Assembly: GCA_022509025.1 (NCBI GenBank)
Contig: JAFLUB010000006.1
Coordinates: forward strand, 1-64,000
DNA length: 64,000 nucleotides
DNA from: Oscillospiraceae bacterium
Lineage (GTDB): Bacteria > Bacillota > Clostridia > UBA1381
Direction of reading: 5' to 3'
A program made the translations under genes and the position numbers. The notes under the pieces were generated by a model that saw only the letters and a program-made list of their open reading frames with translations, was not told where the DNA came from and did no database searches. Position 1 is the first letter of the stretch. Each line of letters begins with the position of its first letter. Positions 7,092 to 53,008 of this stretch are shown piece after piece.

Positions 7092-7176
7092 GATAATCCT
7101 CCATTCTATAATAAATCGAAACGTAGAAAAGGCAGGCAGCAAATTACATTTGCAGCTCACCCATGCGGTCAGGAAT

Positions 7177-7261
7177 CAACCAGGTTGCCCTTTTGAGGAA
7201 CGCCGACGTATGTTGATACGTGGAGTTCCGAAAAAGGGTAAGATGCGCCGCTTATTTTTCG
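7177..7261 (-). repeat. Repeat element A, copy 1 (ispD/ispF intergenic stem-loop)
   Basis: One of three similar copies in the window (others at 33361 and 52069). The core is a long hairpin: CCCTTTT-GA-GGAAC pairs with GTTCC-GA-AAAAGGG, with an inner ACGTAT/ATACGT helix closed by GTTG. It is followed on the plus strand by ggtaagatgcgccgctta. It lies between the ispD stop and ispF start, in the same orientation relative to transcription as the other copies, and its right edge touches the ispD stop codon. No protein is encoded. Confidence 0.85.
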
Positions 7262-7932
7262 CGTTTTTCAAGTATTTTTTCAGCTATAATTATATCGTCC
7301 GGCGTTGTTATCTTAATATTATCATAGCTGCCCTGGCTTATTCTTACTCTGACTCCGTAGTGTTCGGCAATCATACAGTCATCGGTCGCCTCAAAACCTT
7401 CGCATGCCGCTTTTTGGTGTAGCGCAAGAATTTTATCAAGATAAAACACCTGCGGTGTTTGTATAAGATACGTCAATTCACGGTCAACTGTGCCTGATAT
7501 AAATCCGTCCTTCGAGCTTTTTAACGTGTCCTTGCACTTTACTCCCACCGCCGCGGCTCCATACTTTACACAGTCAGCTATTGAAGCATCTATTTCAGCG
7601 CCGGTAACAAGCGCTCTTGCCCCGTCATGAATAAGCACTATATCACCTTGCGCGCACTTTAAACCGTTCATAACTGACTGCTGACGGCTTAAACCTCCAA
7701 CAGTAATATGTCTTACTTTCGTTATGCCGCAGTCCTTTATAATTCTTTCACATTCGCCCACATCACTTTCACCTGAAACAAGAACAATATCATCAATATT
7801 TTTGTTTCTCTCAAATGCTGCGAGCGTAAAATAAAGTATTTCTTTATCTTTTATTTTAAGCAGCAGCTTATTTTTATCCGCGCCCATACGCGTTCCCTTA
7901 CCGCCCGCAACAATAATTGCTGTGATTTTCAT
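7252..7932 (-). CDS. ispD: 2-C-methyl-D-erythritol 4-phosphate cytidylyltransferase
   Basis: 226 residues. IspD makes CDP-methylerythritol from methylerythritol phosphate and CTP. Motifs: IIVAGGKGTRMGADKNK (CTP-binding glycine-rich loop), QQSVMNGL, VLIHDGARALV, YLIQTPQVF and ATDDCMIAEHYG. The start at ATG 7932 (GGGAGG upstream) replaces the track's longer ORF, which would overlap carD. It sits 52 nt after carD, a frequent clostridial arrangement (carD-ispD-ispF). Its last codons (EKREK) lie in sequence shared with repeat element A copy 2. Confidence 0.96.
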   Translation of the reverse strand: MKITAIIVAGGKGTRMGADKNKLLLKIKDKEILYFTLAAFERNKNIDDIVLVSGESDVGECERIIKDCGITKVRHITVGGLSRQQSVMNGLKCAQGDIVLIHDGARALVTGAEIDASIADCVKYGAAAVGVKCKDTLKSSKDGFISGTVDRELTYLIQTPQVFYLDKILALHQKAACEGFEATDDCMIAEHYGVRVRISQGSYDNIKITTPDDIIIAEKILEKREK

Positions 7933-17956: not shown

Positions 17957-19132
17957 TTATTCTATTCCCGCCACGCCTGTTTCGCGTGCTGCTTTTGCTA
18001 CCGCTTTCGCCACATTTTCCGCCACGCGTTTATCAAACGCATCCGGTATTATGTATTCCTCGTTAAGTTCATCGTCACTGATTATTCCGGCGATTGCTTC
18101 CGCTGCTGCTATCTTCATTTCATCGTTGATATCACTTGCTCTCACATCAAGCGCGCCGCGGAAAATACCGGGAAACGCAAGCACGTTGTTAATCTGATTC
18201 GGGAAATCGCTTCTGCCTGTGCCGATTACTTTAACTCCCGCCTTTTTCGCTATGTCAGGCATGATTTCGGGCACGGGGTTCGCCATCGCAAACACAATAG
18301 GATTATCCGCCATTTTCTTAACCATTTCTTCCGTGAGAACACCCGGGGCCGATACACCTATGAAAAGGTCTGCTCCCTCAACCGCCTCCTGAAGCTTCAC
18401 ATCAAGATTTTCAGGATTGGTAAGCTCTGCCAGCTTTGCCTGTTCACTGTTCATCTCAGGATTACCTCTGTAAAGTGAACCGTATTTATCACACATAATA
18501 ACGTTTTTTAGACCTCTTGAAACAAGCAGTCTCGTTATTGCCATACCGGCTGAACCCGCGCCGTTTACTACTGCCTTGATTTTCGTTATGTCCTTATTAA
18601 CGACTTTAAGCGCGCTGAGCACAGACGCAAGCACAACAACCGCCGTTCCGTGCTGGTCGTCATGGAACACCGGAATGTCACATTCCTCTTTTAATCGTCT
18701 TTCAATCTCTATACAGCGCGGAGCTGAAATGTCCTCAAGGTTTATTCCGCCAAATGAACCTGCAATAAGCTTCACGGTGTTCACTATCTCGTCCACGTCC
18801 TTTGAACGCACGCATAATGGGAAAGCATCTACGTCCGCGAAAGTCTTAAACAGCGCGCATTTCCCCTCCATTACCGGCATACCCGCCTCAGGTCCTATAT
18901 CACCGAGTCCCAGCACCGCCGTTCCATCTGTTATAACTGCCACCAGATTTGAGCGGCGTGTATATTTATACGACAAATTGACGTCTTTTGATATTTCAAG
19001 GCACGGCTGGGCAACTCCGGGAGTGTATGCAACGGAAAGTTCTTCACGATTTGTCACAGACGCTCTTGAAACCACCTCTATCTTACCGCCCCATTCCTCA
19101 TGTTTTTTTAGCGCAAATTCTTTTTTATCCAT
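17957..19132 (-). CDS. NAD(P)-dependent malic enzyme (oxaloacetate-decarboxylating)
   Basis: 391 residues, the short bacterial form. It converts malate to pyruvate and CO2. Motifs: the N-terminal SVAYTPGVAQPCLEI catalytic Tyr region, VMEGKCALFK (catalytic Lys), GINLEDISAPRCIEIE (metal ligands), HDDQHGTAVV and the Rossmann GAGSAGMAITRLL. Coenzyme preference cannot be read reliably. The start ATG at 19132 has no GGAGG; the nearest purine-rich run is AGAAAGG in a short hairpin leader that matches the end of repeat element B. It has its own SigA promoter. Confidence 0.95.
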   Translation of the reverse strand: MDKKEFALKKHEEWGGKIEVVSRASVTNREELSVAYTPGVAQPCLEISKDVNLSYKYTRRSNLVAVITDGTAVLGLGDIGPEAGMPVMEGKCALFKTFADVDAFPLCVRSKDVDEIVNTVKLIAGSFGGINLEDISAPRCIEIERRLKEECDIPVFHDDQHGTAVVVLASVLSALKVVNKDITKIKAVVNGAGSAGMAITRLLVSRGLKNVIMCDKYGSLYRGNPEMNSEQAKLAELTNPENLDVKLQEAVEGADLFIGVSAPGVLTEEMVKKMADNPIVFAMANPVPEIMPDIAKKAGVKVIGTGRSDFPNQINNVLAFPGIFRGALDVRASDINDEMKIAAAEAIAGIISDDELNEEYIIPDAFDKRVAENVAKAVAKAARETGVAGIE

Positions 19133-19137
19133 AAAAA

Positions 19138-19168
19138 ATATCCATAGCCTTTCTGCCGCTATGCGGCA
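19138..19168 (-). repeat. Element B remnant in malic-enzyme leader
   Basis: On the minus strand, GGCAGAAAGGCTATGGATAT is identical to the 3' end of element B copies at 40736 and 52812. Here it is preceded not by the long helix but by a compact TGCCGC-ATA-GCGGCA hairpin. It ends 5 nt before the malic-enzyme start codon and supplies the only Shine-Dalgarno-like run. Confidence 0.7.
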
Positions 19169-19189
19169 TAATTATAAAATTCCAATTAT

Positions 19190-19360: not shown

Positions 19361-19526
19361 AATAATCACCATAACCTTTCTGTCCACAAACAGCAAGAAA
19401 AAATTTCTGACGAGCGTAATCATTGGCAGATAAGGCGTGAAATGGTGATTATGCCCATGTGCGTTTTCGAAGCCTGCGAGAAAAATCGTACGGGCAATTA
19501 AATGTAATAATGTGATTTATCACGTT
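19361..19526 (-). repeat. Repeat element B, copy 1 (antisense in ptsI leader)
   Basis: About 165 bp, clearly related to copies at 40736-40897 and 52812-52973. Shared blocks in plus-strand order are a ccataacctttctg end, ggcagataaggcg, gcccatgtgcg followed by cgaagc, acgggcaattaaat, and the palindrome-like tgtgatttatcacgtt. In minus orientation the outer helix is ATAATCACCAT with ATGGTGATTAT. It occupies most of the 423-nt gap between malic enzyme and ptsI, in the opposite direction to ptsI. The remainder of the gap holds the malic-enzyme promoter and a weak TATAAT box near 19320 for ptsI. Confidence 0.85.
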
Positions 19527-21317: not shown

Positions 21318-24300
21318 TTACTGTTCAAGCGATGCCCAGTCACGCACCTCGCCTATACCGGTCCATGTTTCATTTTCATCTTTATACTCCCAATAATGAG
21401 AATTTGTTGCTTCCTGGACTGCGATATAATACCATGCGTTTGTATTAAGGTTATCGCTCCATGTAATCATATCATCCGATAACGCTTCTATACCGGCAGG
21501 TATACGGTCGAGCACATTATTAACAAGCGTCATTGCCTCGGCGCGCGTTATAGGCTGAGTCGGTTTGAAAGTTCCGTCCTCATAGCCATGAATCCAGCCG
21601 CGTGCCGCCGCCCGGTTAATATATTCTTTTGCCCAGTGATCCCCGATATCTGTAAATTGATCCTCACCTTCATATGTGCCGCCGTCAAATCTCGCCGCAA
21701 TTGCCGCGAACTCTGCACGGGTTATTGACTTATTCGGATCGAAGCTACCGTCAAGATAACCGCTTACGATACCTGCATTGGACATAGTCGAAATAGCGTT
21801 ATTGTACCAATCTCCGTTATTCACGTCGCTGAAGCTATTGGATTGTCTCCAATATTTATTTCTTGAATCATCAGTCAGCAGACGGAAGAATATCGTTGCA
21901 ACCTCAGCGCGTGTTATCTGACCGTTAGGACGAACATCTCCTTCAGGATAACCGATAATATACGCGTAGTGGTCGTCATGGTTCAGGTCGGGTATATTAT
22001 TACCGTCCGACCTGTCTCCGTCAGATTTATCTCCATCAGGTTTATCACCATCTTTGCCTGTATACTTGTTTTCTATAATATATCCGGTTGCGCTCTTGAC
22101 GTAATTCGGAGTATATCCGTCAACAGGTTCCTCCGAAACCGTATAAGTGACAGTTTTACCGCCGGAGGTCTTTGCAAGGCCTGTGAATGTATATTTCCAG
22201 TTGTTTGATTTGTTCAGTTTATGCGTTGCTACAACCTTGTCTCCGTTCATAACGTTAACCGTTACGGAATCAGGACGCGCTTCTTCCGCGTCATCATCAC
22301 CTATCCACTGTTTTTCAACTTTTACGCTCGTTGTTGAGCTGCCGCCTCCGGAAGAATGCTTTTTATTTGTATCCTTTTCCCCCCATATTGCATAAAGCGT
22401 ATCATCTCCGTCAGGAATGTACTCATCCCCGGGCTGAATCAAATCTTTGCTGTTAGGATCAGCCTTAGGATTAGTAGACCAGCCTTTGAAATTATGATCC
22501 TTCAGAGTTGGATGAGTGTTTTGGATTATATCTCCCGTGCCCGGTACAATATCCTCCCAATTGTCCGGCATTACACCGTCAAATCCGTCTTTATCTGCAT
22601 CACTCGGAAGGTTTGGATCAAACTTCAGAGAATTCTTAGGTGTTGCGGTCGGTGTCGCCGTTGGCGTTGCAGTAGGTGTTGCCGTTGGTGTCGCTGTTGC
22701 TGTTGCAGTCGCTGCAGGTGTTGCTGTTGCAGTCGCTGCAGGTGTCGCTGTTGCAGTCGCTGCAGGTGTCGCTGTTGCAGTCGCTGCAGGTGTCGCTGTT
22801 GCAGTCGCTGCAGGTGTTGCTGTTGCAGTCGCTGCAGGTGTCGCTGTTGCAGTCGCTACAGGTGTTGCTGTTGCAGGAGCATATTCGTTTGAAAATGCTG
22901 CCGTTGCAGTCTTACCGCCTTCAATTTCACCTGAAGCGTTTGTCGGAGTTGACTTGTAATCAGGATTTTCCGTTTCCGTTACAGTATATTTCGTTCCGGC
23001 AGGAATCGCGCTGATTGACGCGCTTTCTCCGCCCTTTAATGTTACCTTTATACCATTCGTAGTGTCAACCTTATCCTTATCGTCCTGACTTATAATCAAC
23101 TTGCTTGTGTTGATATTGTTTTCATCCGCATCCTTCAGTGTTACTGTGAAAGTAAATTCAGCATTAGCAGGCGCATTATCACCTGTTACAGTCTTTGTGA
23201 TTTTCAGCGTACCCTCTTCATAGTCGGGAACATCATTCTCATTTTCATCAATCAGCCATACCGCGAACAAGGTTCTGCTCTTTTTGCCCATTGCGAGCTT
23301 GTAATCATCTAATTCCTCAGATGCGATAAAGTTATCATCATCTGAAAGTTCAGCGTAATCTTCAGCGGTTGCTATAACATTTACTATATCAGACGGAGCC
23401 ACAGGAATGTCTTCATCTTCATGCTCAACGACATACCAGCCGCCGAATACCGCTTTATCCTTTTTCATTGTACCGGGGCCTGAAACCGGAGCGTTGTAGG
23501 TCTCAACAAATATGTTACCCTTGCCGCTTTCACCGTTTCCTTCCATCTCTGCCGGCGCATTTGTACCGCCGTTAGCGTCATAGTCCTGAGTATGGAATAT
23601 AGTTATCGGTACATCATAGTATTCAGTCTTAGCATCATTGAGACCTTTTCCGAGAGGCACATATTTAACCTTAAATGTTGCAATGCCGTTATCTAAAATA
23701 CTATTTAAGTCAATCTGATATTGAATAGAGCCGACATAAGTGCCCGGTTGAGTTTTATCCTGCGTAGCTACTACATTCGGTGTAGCCTTCGGAGCCCACC
23801 AATCAGTGTTAATATCAGAATTGTCTGAATTTGTTGAATTGGGTTCATAATTAACCTCAATTATATTAGCCGCGTCATTCGGCATGATAACGCCGAGGTT
23901 GATAACAGCGGTATTTGTTTTGTCAGTTGCAGGTTTACCGACGATACCCTTTGTCTGAACTCTCGGTCCGGCATCCAGTATATAGTCTGTATATACCGGC
24001 ATATCACTGTCCATATATTCTGTTACTACATTGTAATCAGTGCCGTATTCTTTTCCACTAAAGCCGAACGGTGTATATGATGATACATTAGACGGTGAAT
24101 GGATATACTCGTCGTCATCATCTTTATAGTAATACTGCTCGATAATAACCTTGCCTACGCCGGTTGCGTTACTGAACGCGTCAGCCGCAACACTTTTCAT
24201 AGCCTTCGGTATTTTCAGTACTCCTGCCTGTTTAGTATCTCCTCCTACAGATATTTCAACTGTATCTTTCTGAGTGAACCCTCTGTTCGCGAAAGCCAGA

Positions 24301-26861
24301 CCCTCAATCACCTTTAAGCTGTCGGGGAATACAACATTGCCGATATTAAAGTTGTCACCTGAGTCGCAGCCGAAAGCACGGTAAGCGATTTCTTCAAGAC
24401 TCGTCGCTTCTTCAAAATTAACAGATTTGACATCTGCGCGGTAAAATACAGAGTCATTTATGCGTTCAATTTTGTCATGAAGAATAAGCTTATTTATTCC
24501 CTTCTCCTGACCGACAACTTTATCGCTGGAGCTTTCGGTATAGTAATGCCAGTTTGTGTTCCAATAGAACAACTCCATATTGTCGTCCTGCTGACCTACA
24601 CCGGTGATTTTAACTGTATGCGGTAAATGGGGCTCATCTTTTTCTGCCCATGTGAGAGTTTTGGGAATTTCAAGGTCAATTGTGTTTCCGATTGGTCCGT
24701 TATAGAACACAACATCGCCGGTGATACGGTTGAACCACCAATAGCTTTCATCAACATCTTCTGTTTCAGAATCATCAACAGCTTGAACTGTCAATGCATC
24801 CTCAATACCGTCCTTATAATGTATATCGGCATAGCCTGCGCTGAACGGATGAGATTCCTTATCTGATTCGTATATTGACTCGTCAGCATCTTCTACACCG
24901 TTAATACCTCCATAAGACTTACCTAACATATAAATATTTCTGAGTCTCGGGCAACGTGAGAATGCTCCGCTGTCAATATTGGCGATAGGCGAGTCTTCGT
25001 TATCTTCTTCATGTCCTGTTGCGTCAAATGTAACAGTCTCCAGACGTGTACACTGTCTGAACGCCCAGTAACCGATAGATTTAAGCTCCGGCGGAAGCGT
25101 TATCTCTGTCAGAGCCTGACACTGTCTGAACGCATTTTTATTTATAGAAGTAACTGTGGACGGTATATTTGTAACCGCCGTCAGGCGCTGACACTGCCAG
25201 AATGCGCCGTCAGGGATTTTAGTCATTCCGCTGTCCTCAAGATTGCTGAAATCAACTGAATACAATACCTGATTCATCGGACGGGAACCAAACGCTCCGT
25301 CTGCGATACCTGTGATTTTGATTTCTTCACCCTCGGTATTATAAACTGATTCGGGTATCGTTATAGAAACTCTTATGTCAGATTCCTTTGCTTTGTCACC
25401 CGATGTGCCATCTGCAAAATCAATATACTTATATCCCGGAGTCGGCGTTTCGCCCGGAGCGGAAGCATCTGAATCATCTATATAATACAGCTCCATCAGA
25501 TACAACAGAGCCTGACCGCTGCCTTGTTCAATTTTATTTTCACCTTGCTCGACGTAGTATTCTACTACTCTTGCTCCACCCTCGTCGGCTGCTTGAATAT
25601 CTACTCTTGTGTCATTAACTTTTATATATGTACCGACATCAGTGCCAAACACAAGAACGATAAAACCATTCTTGTCAGCATTAAAAGTTATAGGCTTCTT
25701 ACTTTCTATTTTTAAAGGACTGCCCTTATACTCTTTTTCCTTATAGGTAATAGTGGTATTAACAACTTCATCGGTTGTGTTTAAACTTCCGTTTGTTATT
25801 GAAAAAACATCATCACCTTCTACGCCCTTTTCGATAACATTATACACGGCGGCAGGGCTCGCTTCAGGGTCACGAGTCGGTTTTGGATCCTGCATGTACG
25901 CATAGTATCTGTAGTCATTTTTATCTGTCTTATAATCAAAATCTTCGGGATCCTTCGCGCCCTTATTGTATTCCTTAGCGGTTTTCAGACCGTAAATCAA
26001 ACCATCCGAGCCTACAACAAACGGAGAATCATTGTCATAGCCATGGGTTTTATCCCACAGAATAAATCCGTTAATAGCTCCCCACGGCGCGCCTGAAAGA
26101 GCGCTCGGAAGAGTCTTTCCGCAGTCTATAACGATATCAGTCTTACAGTTACGGAATGCGTTAACACCTATACTGTTCACACTTGCCGGAATTGATATAT
26201 AGCTAAGCGAGCTGTTTCCGTAAAATACGCTTTGACCAAGCTTTTCAACATTTGACGGAAGCGTAACATTCGTTAAATCGTCGCAGTCGCGGAAGCAGTC
26301 GTCAGGAAGTGACGTTATCGTCAAACTGCTTAAATCAACTTTTGTTAAACCTGAATTGTTTCCGCGGAAGCAGCCGGTGCCAAGCTCAGTGATTGACGAA
26401 GGCAGACCGCTTATTTCCGTGAAATAGTTTGATGCGAACGCTCTTGCGCCCATCTTTTTCAGCTGATATTCAGCATCCGAAACAAAGCTGATTGTGTTAA
26501 GCTCGCAGCCCGAAAACGCGTCAGGCGCGATTTCCACAACCGGATATTGTTTTCCGCTCTCGTCTACGAGATACGATGGGATTGTAATATCTCTTGGCGA
26601 GCCGTTTTCGCCCTGTACATAGTTGTATTGATCTATAACGGCTTCCGTGCCGTTCGCTTTAAGCGACGCGGCCATCCAGCCTACTATGTCATCGCTTCCG
26701 GCTTTACCGTTACTTGATGTAAATTTTACATCACCCGCGCGCGGTGTCGCGTTATTATCGACCGCCAGCGCGGATAACGGCAGAACAGCCGAAAGCATCA
26801 TACTCACACATAACACAAGTGAGAGTATTTTTTCAAAACTACTGTTTTTTCTTGTTTCCAT
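21318..26861 (-). CDS. Giant cell-surface protein: BspA-type LRRs, InlB-like, Cna-B and SLH domains
   Basis: 1847 residues. Signal peptide at about 1-35. BspA-type LRR_5 blocks, repeating LPSSITELGTGCFRGN-like units, lie at about 60-250, 490-640 and 760-900. InlB-like repeat segments (DYDANGGTNAPAEMEG...FGGWYV) are near 1080-1150 and again near 1420-1470. Cna-B domains at about 1190-1290 (LKITKTVTGDNAPANAEFTF) and 1500-1590 (VKVEKQWIGDDDAEEARPDS) flank an (ATPAATAT)n linker at about 1325-1410. Three SLH domains occupy about 1630-1830 (GQITRAEVATIFFRLL, KSITRAEFAAIAARF, QPITRAEAMTLVNNVL). It is likely an adhesin attached non-covalently to the cell wall. The start at 26861 follows AGGAGGAG. The leading 12 codons in the track lie outside the ribosome site. 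Confidence 0.9.
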   Translation of the reverse strand: METRKNSSFEKILSLVLCVSMMLSAVLPLSALAVDNNATPRAGDVKFTSSNGKAGSDDIVGWMAASLKANGTEAVIDQYNYVQGENGSPRDITIPSYLVDESGKQYPVVEIAPDAFSGCELNTISFVSDAEYQLKKMGARAFASNYFTEISGLPSSITELGTGCFRGNNSGLTKVDLSSLTITSLPDDCFRDCDDLTNVTLPSNVEKLGQSVFYGNSSLSYISIPASVNSIGVNAFRNCKTDIVIDCGKTLPSALSGAPWGAINGFILWDKTHGYDNDSPFVVGSDGLIYGLKTAKEYNKGAKDPEDFDYKTDKNDYRYYAYMQDPKPTRDPEASPAAVYNVIEKGVEGDDVFSITNGSLNTTDEVVNTTITYKEKEYKGSPLKIESKKPITFNADKNGFIVLVFGTDVGTYIKVNDTRVDIQAADEGGARVVEYYVEQGENKIEQGSGQALLYLMELYYIDDSDASAPGETPTPGYKYIDFADGTSGDKAKESDIRVSITIPESVYNTEGEEIKITGIADGAFGSRPMNQVLYSVDFSNLEDSGMTKIPDGAFWQCQRLTAVTNIPSTVTSINKNAFRQCQALTEITLPPELKSIGYWAFRQCTRLETVTFDATGHEEDNEDSPIANIDSGAFSRCPRLRNIYMLGKSYGGINGVEDADESIYESDKESHPFSAGYADIHYKDGIEDALTVQAVDDSETEDVDESYWWFNRITGDVVFYNGPIGNTIDLEIPKTLTWAEKDEPHLPHTVKITGVGQQDDNMELFYWNTNWHYYTESSSDKVVGQEKGINKLILHDKIERINDSVFYRADVKSVNFEEATSLEEIAYRAFGCDSGDNFNIGNVVFPDSLKVIEGLAFANRGFTQKDTVEISVGGDTKQAGVLKIPKAMKSVAADAFSNATGVGKVIIEQYYYKDDDDEYIHSPSNVSSYTPFGFSGKEYGTDYNVVTEYMDSDMPVYTDYILDAGPRVQTKGIVGKPATDKTNTAVINLGVIMPNDAANIIEVNYEPNSTNSDNSDINTDWWAPKATPNVVATQDKTQPGTYVGSIQYQIDLNSILDNGIATFKVKYVPLGKGLNDAKTEYYDVPITIFHTQDYDANGGTNAPAEMEGNGESGKGNIFVETYNAPVSGPGTMKKDKAVFGGWYVVEHEDEDIPVAPSDIVNVIATAEDYAELSDDDNFIASEELDDYKLAMGKKSRTLFAVWLIDENENDVPDYEEGTLKITKTVTGDNAPANAEFTFTVTLKDADENNINTSKLIISQDDKDKVDTTNGIKVTLKGGESASISAIPAGTKYTVTETENPDYKSTPTNASGEIEGGKTATAAFSNEYAPATATPVATATATPAATATATPAATATATPAATATATPAATATATPAATATATPAATATATATPTATPTATPTATPTATPKNSLKFDPNLPSDADKDGFDGVMPDNWEDIVPGTGDIIQNTHPTLKDHNFKGWSTNPKADPNSKDLIQPGDEYIPDGDDTLYAIWGEKDTNKKHSSGGGSSTTSVKVEKQWIGDDDAEEARPDSVTVNVMNGDKVVATHKLNKSNNWKYTFTGLAKTSGGKTVTYTVSEEPVDGYTPNYVKSATGYIIENKYTGKDGDKPDGDKSDGDRSDGNNIPDLNHDDHYAYIIGYPEGDVRPNGQITRAEVATIFFRLLTDDSRNKYWRQSNSFSDVNNGDWYNNAISTMSNAGIVSGYLDGSFDPNKSITRAEFAAIAARFDGGTYEGEDQFTDIGDHWAKEYINRAAARGWIHGYEDGTFKPTQPITRAEAMTLVNNVLDRIPAGIEALSDDMITWSDNLNTNAWYYIAVQEATNSHYWEYKDENETWTGIGEVRDWASLEQ
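22640..22880. repeat. 24-bp tandem repeat encoding ATPAATAT linker
   Basis: Units of ggtgtcgctgttgcagtcgc plus tgca, about eight to ten copies with c/t wobble changes, run in frame through the LRR/SLH gene and encode Ala-Thr-Pro-Ala-Ala-Thr-Ala-Thr. It is a flexible, possibly O-glycosylated linker and a likely length-variable locus. Confidence 0.95.
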
Positions 26862-26920
26862 AATAAGGTTACTCCTCCTTGATGTATAAATATTCATTAT
26901 ATATTTAAAACTAACTATAT

Positions 26921-33280: not shown

Positions 33281-33360
33281 CTTAATCCTCCATCCAACCG
33301 CCATTAGGCGGAACTAATTGTAATGCGACGTTTATTTTCGCATTTTGTAACGTGGAAAAG

Positions 33361-33450
33361 AAACAAGCAGATTCCCCTTTTGAGGGACGCTGACGTATGC
33401 TGATACTTCAAGTTCCGAAAAAGGGTGAGGTGCGCCGTTTATTTTTCGCG
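33361..33450 (-). repeat. Repeat element A, copy 2 (glnH/glnP intergenic)
   Basis: Same hairpin as copies 1 and 3: CCCCTTTTGAGGGAC pairs with GTTCCGAAAAAGGG, with ACGTAT / ATACTT inside. The GGAAC-to-GGGAC change keeps the helix by a G-U pair. A second short copy of its right edge (tgcgacgtttattttcgc) lies at 33324-33341, so the hairpin is flanked by imperfect direct repeats. Confidence 0.85.
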
Positions 33451-33471
33451 TTACCCCATTCCAAAATACGG

Positions 33472-39769: not shown

Positions 39770-40729
39770 CTATCTTATTAAAAGATACGCTGTAAAGCCA
39801 AGATACATGACTATCATAACGATTCCCGCTCCGCGATTTATTTTTTTATTAATCAGGGCAAATATATAGGTAACAGCCAAAACGCCTGTCAATATAAGCG
39901 CGTCGAAAACAGTGTTCATATCCGTATTAATATTGCTTATCGTAGATGAAATACCGAGTATAAACAGTACGTTGAAAACATTTGAGCCCATAACATTTCC
40001 CACGGCAATGTCATTCTGCTTTTTGCGCGCTGCGACGATTGACGTTACAAGCTCCGGAAGCGATGTTCCTATCGCGACAACGGTAAGCGCTACAACCTTC
40101 TCGCTCAGTCCCGCCTTCAGCGCAAGTTCCTGCGCGCCTTTAACGGTAAGCTCACCACCTATGATAACCCCCGCAACACCGGCAATGATGAATAAAATAC
40201 ATTTCCACATGGGCATTTTATTCTCTGCATCGTCTCCCGCGTCAGGTATACACGAAGCTTCGCGTTTGCCGGAAATAATTGAAACCGTCATAAACACCGC
40301 AAATATCAAAAGCAGCATGGCACCGTCAAATCTTGTCAGCGCAATCTGTCCGCCGTTCATGGTAAGAAGAAGCGCAAGCATTACAACCGTAATGGCGATA
40401 CAGAAAGGGAAATCACGCTTTAGAATATTTTTCTTTACTGCGACCGGTGCAAACAGCGCGCTTGCTCCCAAAACGACAAGCGTATTAAACATATTTGAGC
40501 CTATCACGTTTCCAATCGCTATTTCATTACTGCCCTGAAGAGACGCGGTCACGCTCACCGCCGCCTCAGGAAGACTTGTTCCTAACGCTACAACTGTAAG
40601 ACCCACAAGATATGCCGGAATTTTCAGCTTGTCCGACAAACCGCACGCACCGTCTACAAATACATCCGCGCCCTTGACAAGCAGAATAAATCCTCCTATA
40701 AGAAATATAATCATAAGTATTGTGTTCAT
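39770..40729 (-). CDS. CaCA-family cation/Na+ (or H+) exchanger, YrbG-like
   Basis: 319 residues, about ten helices in two inverted halves, each with an alpha-repeat: VALGTSLPEAAVSVTASLQGSNEIAIGNVIGSNMFN and VAIGTSLPELVTSIVAARKKQNDIAVGNVMGSNVFN. These bind the divalent cation. The Mn2+ riboswitch upstream and mntP downstream point to Mn2+ (or Ca2+/Mn2+) export. ATG at 40729 gives the normal N-terminus MNTILMIIFLIGGFILLVKGAD; the 55 extra codons in the track are leader sequence. There is no GGAGG: the start lies 16 nt beyond the AGAAAGG at the end of element B. Confidence 0.92.
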   Translation of the reverse strand: MNTILMIIFLIGGFILLVKGADVFVDGACGLSDKLKIPAYLVGLTVVALGTSLPEAAVSVTASLQGSNEIAIGNVIGSNMFNTLVVLGASALFAPVAVKKNILKRDFPFCIAITVVMLALLLTMNGGQIALTRFDGAMLLLIFAVFMTVSIISGKREASCIPDAGDDAENKMPMWKCILFIIAGVAGVIIGGELTVKGAQELALKAGLSEKVVALTVVAIGTSLPELVTSIVAARKKQNDIAVGNVMGSNVFNVLFILGISSTISNINTDMNTVFDALILTGVLAVTYIFALINKKINRGAGIVMIVMYLGFTAYLLIR

Positions 40730-40735
40730 TGTAAA

Positions 40736-40897
40736 ATATCCATAGCCTTTCTGCCCACAAATAGTAATGAAAAATATTAACATCCCTATCGTGGGCAGAT
40801 AAGGCGTTAAATGGATTTTGCCCATGTGCGTTTTTCGAAGCAACGCGAGAAAAAAATCGCACGGGCAATTAAATCCGATTAACGTGATTTTCACGTT
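40736..40897 (-). repeat. Repeat element B, copy 2 (leader of the cation exchanger)
   Basis: About 162 bp, closely similar to copy 3 at 52812. In transcript sense: an AACGTGAAAATCACGTT hairpin; a helix pairing GCCCGTGCGA with TCGCACATGGGC (one bulged base); then ATCCAT-n-GCCTT-n-CTGCCCAC pairing with GTGGGCAG-AAAGGC-ATGGAT. It ends 7 nt before the exchanger start. It lies between the riboswitch terminator and the gene, so it would be in the mRNA only when the riboswitch permits read-through. Confidence 0.87.
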
Positions 40898-40952
40898 AAC
40901 CCTCCTGTTTTTATTCTTCCAACGTCATAGAAGTAAAATTCATTCTATGTTT

Positions 40953-52068: not shown

Positions 52069-52188
52069 GTAAGTTGCACCGCTTATTCGTAACGGAAACA
52101 AGAAGCAAGCAGGTTGCCTTTTTGAGGAACGCAGTCGTATGTTGATACGTGTGATTCCGAAAAAGGGTAAGATGCGCCGCTTACTGTG
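52069..52188 (-). repeat. Repeat element A, copy 3 (apt/nitroreductase intergenic)
   Basis: Stem-loop core at about 52111-52168, as in copies 1 and 2, including the inner CGTAT-gttg-ATACG helix. The two edges carry imperfect direct repeats, ggtaagttgcaccgctta (52068-52085) and ggtaagatgcgccgctta (52166-52183). It is the best copy for defining the ends of the element. Confidence 0.86.
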
Positions 52189-52253
52189 CAACAGCAAGGT
52201 TCCGGGGTACCCGCCCGCAATTTTTGATTGCGCCGACGGGTCGGCTTCTTATT

Positions 52254-52289
52254 GTTTTCGTTAGTTTTCGTTAGTTTTCGTTAGTTTTC
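52254..52289. repeat. 10-bp tandem repeat at the apt stop codon
   Basis: gttttcgtta occurs three times in a row plus a fourth partial unit. The apt TAA stop is inside the array (minus-strand unit GAAAACTAAC), so the array reaches from the last codons of apt into the 3' UTR. Just beyond lies a CGCAAT/ATTGCG hairpin (52216-52232). Confidence 0.9.
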
Positions 52290-52805
52290 ATGGAATTGCA
52301 ATGCCGACCGTACCTCATATCCTTCTAAAACATCTCTTCCCTTAAGGTCAATAAGCTCTACAAGGAATAAAAGACCGGCAACGCTTCCGCCGAGCTGCTC
52401 GATTAGCTCCGCAGATGCTTTTATCGTTCCGCCTGTCGCGATTAAGTCGTCAACAAGCAGCACCTTATCCCCTTTATTAATAGCGTCCTTGTGCATCTCT
52501 ATTTCAGCCGTTCCGTATTCAAGAGAATACTCCTTTGATACAGTTTCACGCGGCAGCTTGCCTTTTTTCCTTATCAGGACAAAGCCCTTACCCAAAGCGT
52601 ACGCAAGCGGCATTCCAAGAAGAAATCCTCTTGATTCAGTTCCTGCTATAACGTCAAAATCCAAATCAGACGATAATTCAATCAGCGTGTCTATCGCTAA
52701 CTTCAATCCTTCCTTATCCTGCAATACAGAGGTAATATCCCGGAATATAATTCCCGGTTCCGGAAAATCCGGTATGTTTGTTACGTAATCTGCCAAGTTT
52801 TTCAT
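52281..52805 (-). CDS. apt: Adenine phosphoribosyltransferase
   Basis: 174 residues. Apt salvages adenine to AMP with PRPP. The PRPP-binding loop VLLVDDLIATGGTIKASAELI and the family motifs FPEPGIIFRDITSVLQD, AGTESRGFLLGMPLAY and FVLIRKKGKLP are intact. ATG at 52805 is at the expected N-terminus (MKNLADYVTNIPDFP). It lacks a GGAGG site; the closest is AGAAAGG, 16 nt away at the end of element B copy 3. A SigA promoter lies upstream of that element, so the apt mRNA carries the full element as its leader. Confidence 0.95.
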   Translation of the reverse strand: MKNLADYVTNIPDFPEPGIIFRDITSVLQDKEGLKLAIDTLIELSSDLDFDVIAGTESRGFLLGMPLAYALGKGFVLIRKKGKLPRETVSKEYSLEYGTAEIEMHKDAINKGDKVLLVDDLIATGGTIKASAELIEQLGGSVAGLLFLVELIDLKGRDVLEGYEVRSALQFHEN

Positions 52806-52811
52806 AATATA

Positions 52812-52973
52812 ATATCCATAGCCTTTCTGCCCACAAGTAGTAATGAAAATCTAACGTCCCTATCGCGGGCAGATAAGGCGTTAAATGGATATTATGCCCA
52901 TGTGCGATTTTCGAAGCAACTCAAGAAAATACTCGCACGGGCAATTAAATCCGACAACGTGATTTATCACGTT
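52812..52973 (-). repeat. Repeat element B, copy 3 (leader of apt)
   Basis: About 162 bp. In transcript sense: AACGTGATAAATCACGTT hairpin; GCCCGTGCGA pairing with TCGCACATGGGC (one bulged base); then ATATCCAT, GCCTT and CTGCCC pairing in order with GGGCAG, AAGGC and ATGGATAT. It ends 6 nt before the apt ATG. This is the reference copy, since it is in sense orientation downstream of a recognisable promoter. The 332-nt gap here holds only this element, the apt promoter and the symporter terminator. Confidence 0.87.
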
Positions 52974-53008
52974 AGCCCTTTCATCTCTTTATGTGTACCG
53001 TTTTCTCT

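Follow-up and report, generated by a model that had tools for sequence, protein, structure and literature searches.

Comparison of genome sequences identifies element B, about 165 nt long, as a structured, patchily distributed, multi-copy insertion, placed in a single orientation within the spacer between the Shine-Dalgarno sequence (SD) and the start codon of its host genes. It is probably a non-coding, non-autonomous mobile element, which targets ribosome-binding sites (RBSs) and brings one of its own. The element had been noticed as three copies with common blocks in a 64,000-nt stretch of Oscillospiraceae DNA (contig JAFLUB010000006.1, here called the window). All three are present, on the minus strand as transcripts, with a mean column identity of 79% when aligned, and they belong to a family of at least 54 copies in the genome. 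The split-off native SD, the pseudoknot core and the start codon adjoining the 3' edge are points that go beyond the original prediction.

Table 1. Element B copies of the window and their annotated parts. The borders of the copies were taken from covariance-model matches on the minus strand.
Feature	Position	Strand	Basis
Full-length element B, apt leader (transcript 52972 to 52810)	52810..52972	-	Covariance-model match, 178.6 bits
GAAAGGG, probable native SD of apt, now bordering the element on its 5' side	52976..52982	-	Flank sequence; SD directly before ATG in congener orthologs
P0 hairpin AACGTGATAAATCACGTT	52956..52973	-	Two pairs changed on both sides
P2 hairpin GCCCGTGCGA...TCGCACATGGGC	52896..52942	-	94.9% of cells paired, 41 copies
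P4 5' strand TAATATCCAT	52885..52894	-	Covariation with P4 3' strand
P4 3' strand ATGGATATTA, immediately 5' of the start codon region	52810..52819	-	Covariation with P4 5' strand
S1 hairpin TTTAACGCCTTATC, loop TGCCCGC, GATAGGGACGTTAGA	52850..52885	-	Covariation among diverse relatives
S2 3' strand GTGGGCA, pseudoknot partner of the S1 loop	52828..52834	-	Matched variants among diverse relatives
AGAAAGG, near-invariant, SD-like, putative function	52822..52828	-	Alignments
Gene for an apt-like phosphoribosyltransferase, beginning 4 nt after the element	52281..52805	-	ORF, Pfam
Full-length element B, before Na/Ca exchanger gene (39770-40729)	40734..40896	-	Covariance-model match, 179.3 bits; Pfam
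AGGAGG, native SD of the exchanger gene, separated by the element	40901..40906	-	Flank sequence
Diverged element B copy, between ptsI and malic-enzyme gene	19363..19525	-	Covariance-model match, 138.2 bits
Core remnant GCAGAAAGGCTATGG, after small hairpin GCCGCATAGCGGC, before the malic-enzyme start codon	19142..19156 (remnant), 19132-19175 (region)	-	Sequence

The location in 5' leaders, as first proposed, is correct for the apt and exchanger copies. The ptsI-side copy is not oriented as a ptsI leader: it lies on the strand opposite to ptsI and points toward the malic-enzyme gene, 17957-19132(-); it is followed by ATG-TAA, without an ORF. The window also contains a second repeat family of 93 nt (7173-7265, 33360-33452 and 52102-52194; 83-86% identity), which is probably the 'Element A' of the original prediction, and an array of 12-nt tandem repeats at 22612-22918, within a long ORF (21318-26897).

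Copy number, distribution and host genes

The genome of the window (G000) is a draft metagenome-assembled genome of 2.49 Mb in 85 contigs, 88% complete. By using the apt copy as query, 40 copies were found in it, at 82-90% identity. The covariance-model search that had been proposed as a check was run with a model built on 41 copies, and it returned at least 54 strong, full-length matches (124 bits or more), plus about 13 weaker, mostly shorter ones, which have just the 3' ~75 nt of the element in common. With up to one mismatch, the 17-nt core GGGCAGAAAGGCTATGG was found at 70 places in G000 and at 0 to 11 in each of 60 relatives, while its reversed control produced no match in any genome scanned.

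Distribution is patchy: among 40 relatives, 15 and 18 matches were found in members of two other genera (G019 and G020), 0 to 4 in congeners and few in other families, and the exact core is present in 24 of the 95 genomes of the order. A scan of public genome contigs for the exact 18-nt core gave at least 85 stretches. Among the matches listed, nearly all belong to metagenome-assembled Clostridia, and many of the names refer to a gut or rumen origin; also among them is an isolate, Ructibacterium gallinarum DSM 107454. One exact core match was obtained in IMG/VR (L295, IMGVR_UViG_3300031555_010414), and no record of the phage and plasmid collections matched.

The genes located behind full copies include those for a class II tRNA synthetase, AddB, IlvD, aconitase, PurC, Cmk, QueC, MurG, Lgt, SpoVAD, ArgR, an SMC/RecN-type ATPase, a pyrophosphatase and BacA. 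Short cores precede the genes for the DNA polymerase beta clamp, a Clp ATPase, PrmA and Ham1, and, in public genomes, the core is found before RecA, Hsp70, aldolase, RhaA and others. Within 6 kb of G000 (L113, C1:84775-90776), four short core variants are found, each immediately 5' of a co-oriented gene; the products include an AI-2E-family transporter and DegV. No pathway or function common to the nearly 100 downstream genes scanned was found. A metabolite riboswitch was dropped for this reason, and a riboswitch for a single ligand is unlikely, given the gene set.

As originally suspected, element B matches no known RNA class. Comparison with Rfam 15 gave no match in the window at the gathering threshold, and the apt copy produced chance-level matches only, at a permissive threshold; neither the window nor the apt copy matched a group I or group II intron.

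Insertion between the Shine-Dalgarno sequence and the start codon

In transcript sense, nearly every copy shows the layout SD-n-TTA-element-nn-ATG, with a purine-rich SD. The last three bases of the left flank are T in 67%, T in 96% and A in 98% of the copies, and the purine-rich block is found 4-10 nt further left. Of the 54 strong copies, 52 are in sense with an ORF of at least 60 aa whose start is no more than 9 nt from the end of the element, the two copies without such an ORF being the ptsI-side copy and C15:31926. Both an ORF start and an SD motif within 14 nt on the left were found for 44 of the 54, while the two features are both present at 1.6% of the 9,338 TA sites of the window. Similarly, at 77 of the 82 public places among the matches listed, a start codon is located 4-11 nt behind the 18-nt core, with a mode of 8; three places (L215, L245 and L265) look like chance core matches within genes.

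The core mostly lies 5-9 nt 5' of the start codon, and the conserved GG and AGAAAGG are found about 8 nt and about 14 nt before the AUG, respectively. Since the short cores preceding PrmA, an NrdG-like gene and Ham1 have no obvious SD upstream, the SD of the core itself would have to serve there. As for the ends of the element, no terminal inverted repeats surround it as a whole and no target duplication was seen; TA is found at the left junction only, the right edge being TA, TT or TG, and the P0 hairpin is located at one end. In most copies, insertion creates a distance of 5-8 nt between the native SD and a GTG within the element (e.g. window 52972, minus strand); the mini-ORFs that begin there are often 6 or 8 aa long, and their reading frame is not conserved. 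Annotation of these genes requires caution: in many copies an in-frame ATG occurs upstream of the true start.

Orthologs of 12 host genes, 76-100% identical across the N-terminal stretch compared, were fetched from congeners. The element is absent from all of them, and an SD is found close before the start in nearly all. When the element was removed in silico from the G000 sequences, a near-canonical, congener-like spacer was obtained for most of the 12 genes, with lengths, as compared to the congener, of 6 and 7 nt for Acn, 8 and 8 for MurG, 7 and 7 for Asd, 7 and 6 for Cmk and 7 and 8 for IlvD. The flanks of the LysRS-like, TrkA and Apt genes are too diverged for a base-by-base comparison, and the N-terminus of QueC is also changed. 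The organization of the congener genes and the spacers resulting from removal thus identify the element as an insertion into the SD-AUG spacer.

An independent empty-site case is provided by a large serine recombinase gene, in which G012 and G020 have the insertion at an identical site, the two proteins being 97% identical; its homologs in G002 and G013 are element-free, with leaders AAAGGAGTGTAATTTTATG and AAAGGAGTGTATTTTTTATG. As a mobiliser, this recombinase was rejected: its only counterpart in G000 is 27% identical, and the close homologs in G002 and G013 have empty leaders, so the recombinase gene is rather a target. Insertion also appears to be repeated. A public locus (L264) contains three tandem units, the first of which, internally shortened, lies behind GGAGTGATA, the second and third each lying behind the ATGGGAAATA of the preceding unit; in G020 (C63), an older core is found upstream of an element. 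Both arrangements suggest that a further insertion took place in an RBS spacer, here that of the element itself.

Neither TnpB (PF07282) nor the reverse transcriptase domain RVT_1 (PF00078) was found in the 88%-complete draft genome. Five Y1 transposase places are present (L158, L159, L160, L161 and L162), as genes or fragments, several of them at contig ends, with no element ends nearby. An origin from TnpB/omegaRNA or IS605 elements was rejected because TnpB is missing from the draft genome and the Y1 ends differ, and spread by a reverse transcriptase because no RVT_1 was found there. Intron-like guide pairing with the left flank was also discarded, the left TA being fixed while the internal strand varies.

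Conserved fold and the putative ribosome-binding region

The 41 copies from G000 were aligned by using MAFFT, and a 44-pair structure was scored against shuffles and against partners slid along the alignment. In the shuffle tests, which are inflated by the relatedness of the copies, 96.3% of the cells were paired, versus 93.7 +/- 0.2, with 32 doubly changed cells, versus 8.7 +/- 2.3, and a covariation score of 0.090, versus 0.051 +/- 0.003. When the partners were slid by 1-3 columns, 31-46% of the cells remained paired, with 0-4 double changes. Most double changes occur in the outer helix, P4, whose predicted covariation holds across the 41 copies: alignment pairs 86/182, 90/178 and 91/177 vary on both sides. 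The second helix is also present as described, and the competition between GGATTT and AAATCC is visible only in individual copies.

Because of the relatedness of the copies, diverse relatives were tested next. For 80 sequences below 75% identity, P4 reached 6.79 of 9 pairs, versus 6.39 +/- 0.09 with swapped partners (maximum 6.71 in 2000), and the longest S1 helix 7.19, versus 5.97 +/- 0.12 (maximum 6.26 in 300). At least 5 of the 6 pairs of the inner S1 arm are kept in 67 of 79 sequences, also where the arms diverge (CTTATC/GATAAG, CATATC/GATATG, CATAGC/GCTATG and GTTATC/GATAAC). The S1 loop TGCCCAC was picked by its complementarity to a downstream GTGGGCA, so its pairing rate by itself carries no weight as evidence; matched variants such as TGCCCAA/TTGGGCA are found. 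From the compensation in the S1 arm and the matched variants of S1 loop and S2, the conserved fold is, on comparative grounds, a pseudoknot, which P4 closes in those sequences that have it; AGAAAGGCT separates S2 from P4. P5 (GCC/GGC), a helix of the minimum-energy fold, is kept in 53 of 79 sequences without clear compensation, and the S1/S2 pseudoknot was preferred to it. Six G000 copies carry an extra GC-rich insert of ~74 nt in the P0 loop (C25:6662, C25:7350, C3:50780, C4:51597, C32:8460 and C2:34753); in most of them the P0 start again follows right after a purine-rich, SD-like stretch.

AGAAAGG is near-invariant and lies outside the pairing of the conserved fold; by energy folding, the region of the element's own SD is predicted to be largely paired. 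The motif is complementary to the usual 3' tail of 16S rRNA, CCUUUCU, which is assumed here and may differ in this genome. Its conservation bears on an alternative that we consider unlikely, a split RBS, in which folding would draw the native SD, at the 5' edge, close enough to the AUG for initiation, the internal SD being dispensable. Such an arrangement is suggested by the position of the element between SD and AUG and by the native SD retained at the 5' edge in 44 of 54 copies, and it has a precedent in phage T4 genes 38 and 25, where an RNA structure between SD and AUG reduces the spacing from 22 to 5 nt and from 27 to 11 nt, respectively (PMC3014915). Even when completely folded, however, element B would leave roughly 16 unpaired nt, more than in T4; some short cores lack an obvious SD upstream; and AGAAAGG, unpaired in the conserved fold, is near-invariant.

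The pseudoknot beside the RBS, similar to that of translational riboswitches, and a core deeply conserved across families would also fit a mobilised cis-regulatory leader (a riboswitch, a thermometer or a protein-binding site), which hides the RBS of a broad regulon. This reading appears quite improbable: the host genes have no common pathway, although a general signal is compatible with them, the presence of the element is patchy and orthologs lack it. The original prediction had offered a regulatory leader or a small mobile element whose fold matters; the selected structure and the inserted element are retained, but the element appears to become the ribosome-binding region of the leader.

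A probable mobile element targeting ribosome-binding sites

According to the reading that we favour, a mobile element bringing its own RBS, element B would insert in sense into the spacer between SD and start codon, usually right after TA. This would leave about 165 nt between the native SD and the AUG, in essential-type genes as well, so the element would have to restore initiation, most likely via an RBS at its own 3' end (AGAAAGG and GG), within the pseudoknot/P4 fold. Translation of the host gene would then depend on the fold of the element. The supply of an RBS is suggested by the start codons located ~8 nt from the conserved GG and by the short cores without an obvious upstream SD. We infer mobility with a target preference for the SD-AUG spacer, in which the site is chosen, beyond any retention by selection. 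Selection after landing could contribute to the pattern; intergenic landings, which are expected to be easy to keep, are nearly absent. A bolder version, held to be rather unlikely, is a mobile class that recognises the RBS itself, possibly on the mRNA, and that is either cut out of the transcript or works as a translational switch which can be transplanted and has captured dozens of genes in one species.

Excision may also be considered by itself, element B being a small self-splicing or otherwise excised RNA, whose removal would restore the native SD-spacer-AUG in the mRNA. The near-canonical spacers obtained by removal, the precise borders and the pairing of an internal strand with the 3' end (P4) agree with it, but 165 nt is below the known sizes of group I and II introns, no Rfam intron match was obtained and no reverse transcriptase was found in the draft genome, and a conserved core mostly 5-9 nt from the start codon would be needless for a spliced element; we regard this as very doubtful. 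Finally, a plain MITE-like DNA insertion into TA, with placement due to selection or gene-dense genomes, as in the counter-hypothesis of the original prediction, would account for the high copy number, the patchiness, the left-junction TA, the missing coding capacity and the empty sites in relatives, but it is highly improbable, since positions and orientation are strongly non-random, with nearly all copies in one sense at RBS spacers and intergenic landings almost absent, the element as a whole is not flanked by inverted repeats, and covariation extends across genera.

The putative RBS-targeting element belongs to no Rfam family, and nothing similar was found in the open-access literature. 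If confirmed, a selfish sequence would enter essential-type genes without breaking them, by replacing the RBS that it disrupts, and dozens of unrelated genes would be placed behind one RNA fold. What recognises the site, whether DNA or mRNA is targeted and how expression changes become testable questions.

To our knowledge, no described mobile class combines the SD-AUG spacer as a target with a fixed orientation. MITEs and small bacterial repeats (RUP, BOX, Correia, REP), some of which use a TA target, are, like element B, short, non-coding, multi-copy, structured and patchy. Element B differs from them in its fixed orientation to genes, its SD-AUG target, a pseudoknot core with an SD-like sequence and the lack of flanking inverted repeats. 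IS200/IS605 derivatives, including TnpB omegaRNA, have hairpins near the ends and a pseudoknot near the right end; element B shares these features, as well as a short motif 5' of the insertion and the lack of a target duplication, but the draft genome has no TnpB, its Y1 transposases lack element ends, and short targets leave the SD-AUG placement unexplained. Translational riboswitches such as SAM-II and preQ1-II form a pseudoknot at the SD, and element B also has a pseudoknot directly 5' of the start codon; unlike them, it has no common gene function, is inserted into existing leaders and has no Rfam match.

The class of 'mobile/repeat sequence candidates' is likewise short, structured and multi-copy, but its orientation to genes is typically inconsistent (PMC11109978), whereas that of element B is consistent. 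Group I and II introns are also structured RNAs in transcribed regions and in sense orientation (PMC3984707 for bacterial group I); element B is much shorter, with no catalytic core recognised by Rfam and no reverse transcriptase found. The split RBSs of T4 genes 25 and 38 share with element B an RNA structure between SD and AUG (PMC3014915), but those structures are short, gene-specific and non-mobile, whereas element B has an SD-like sequence of its own.
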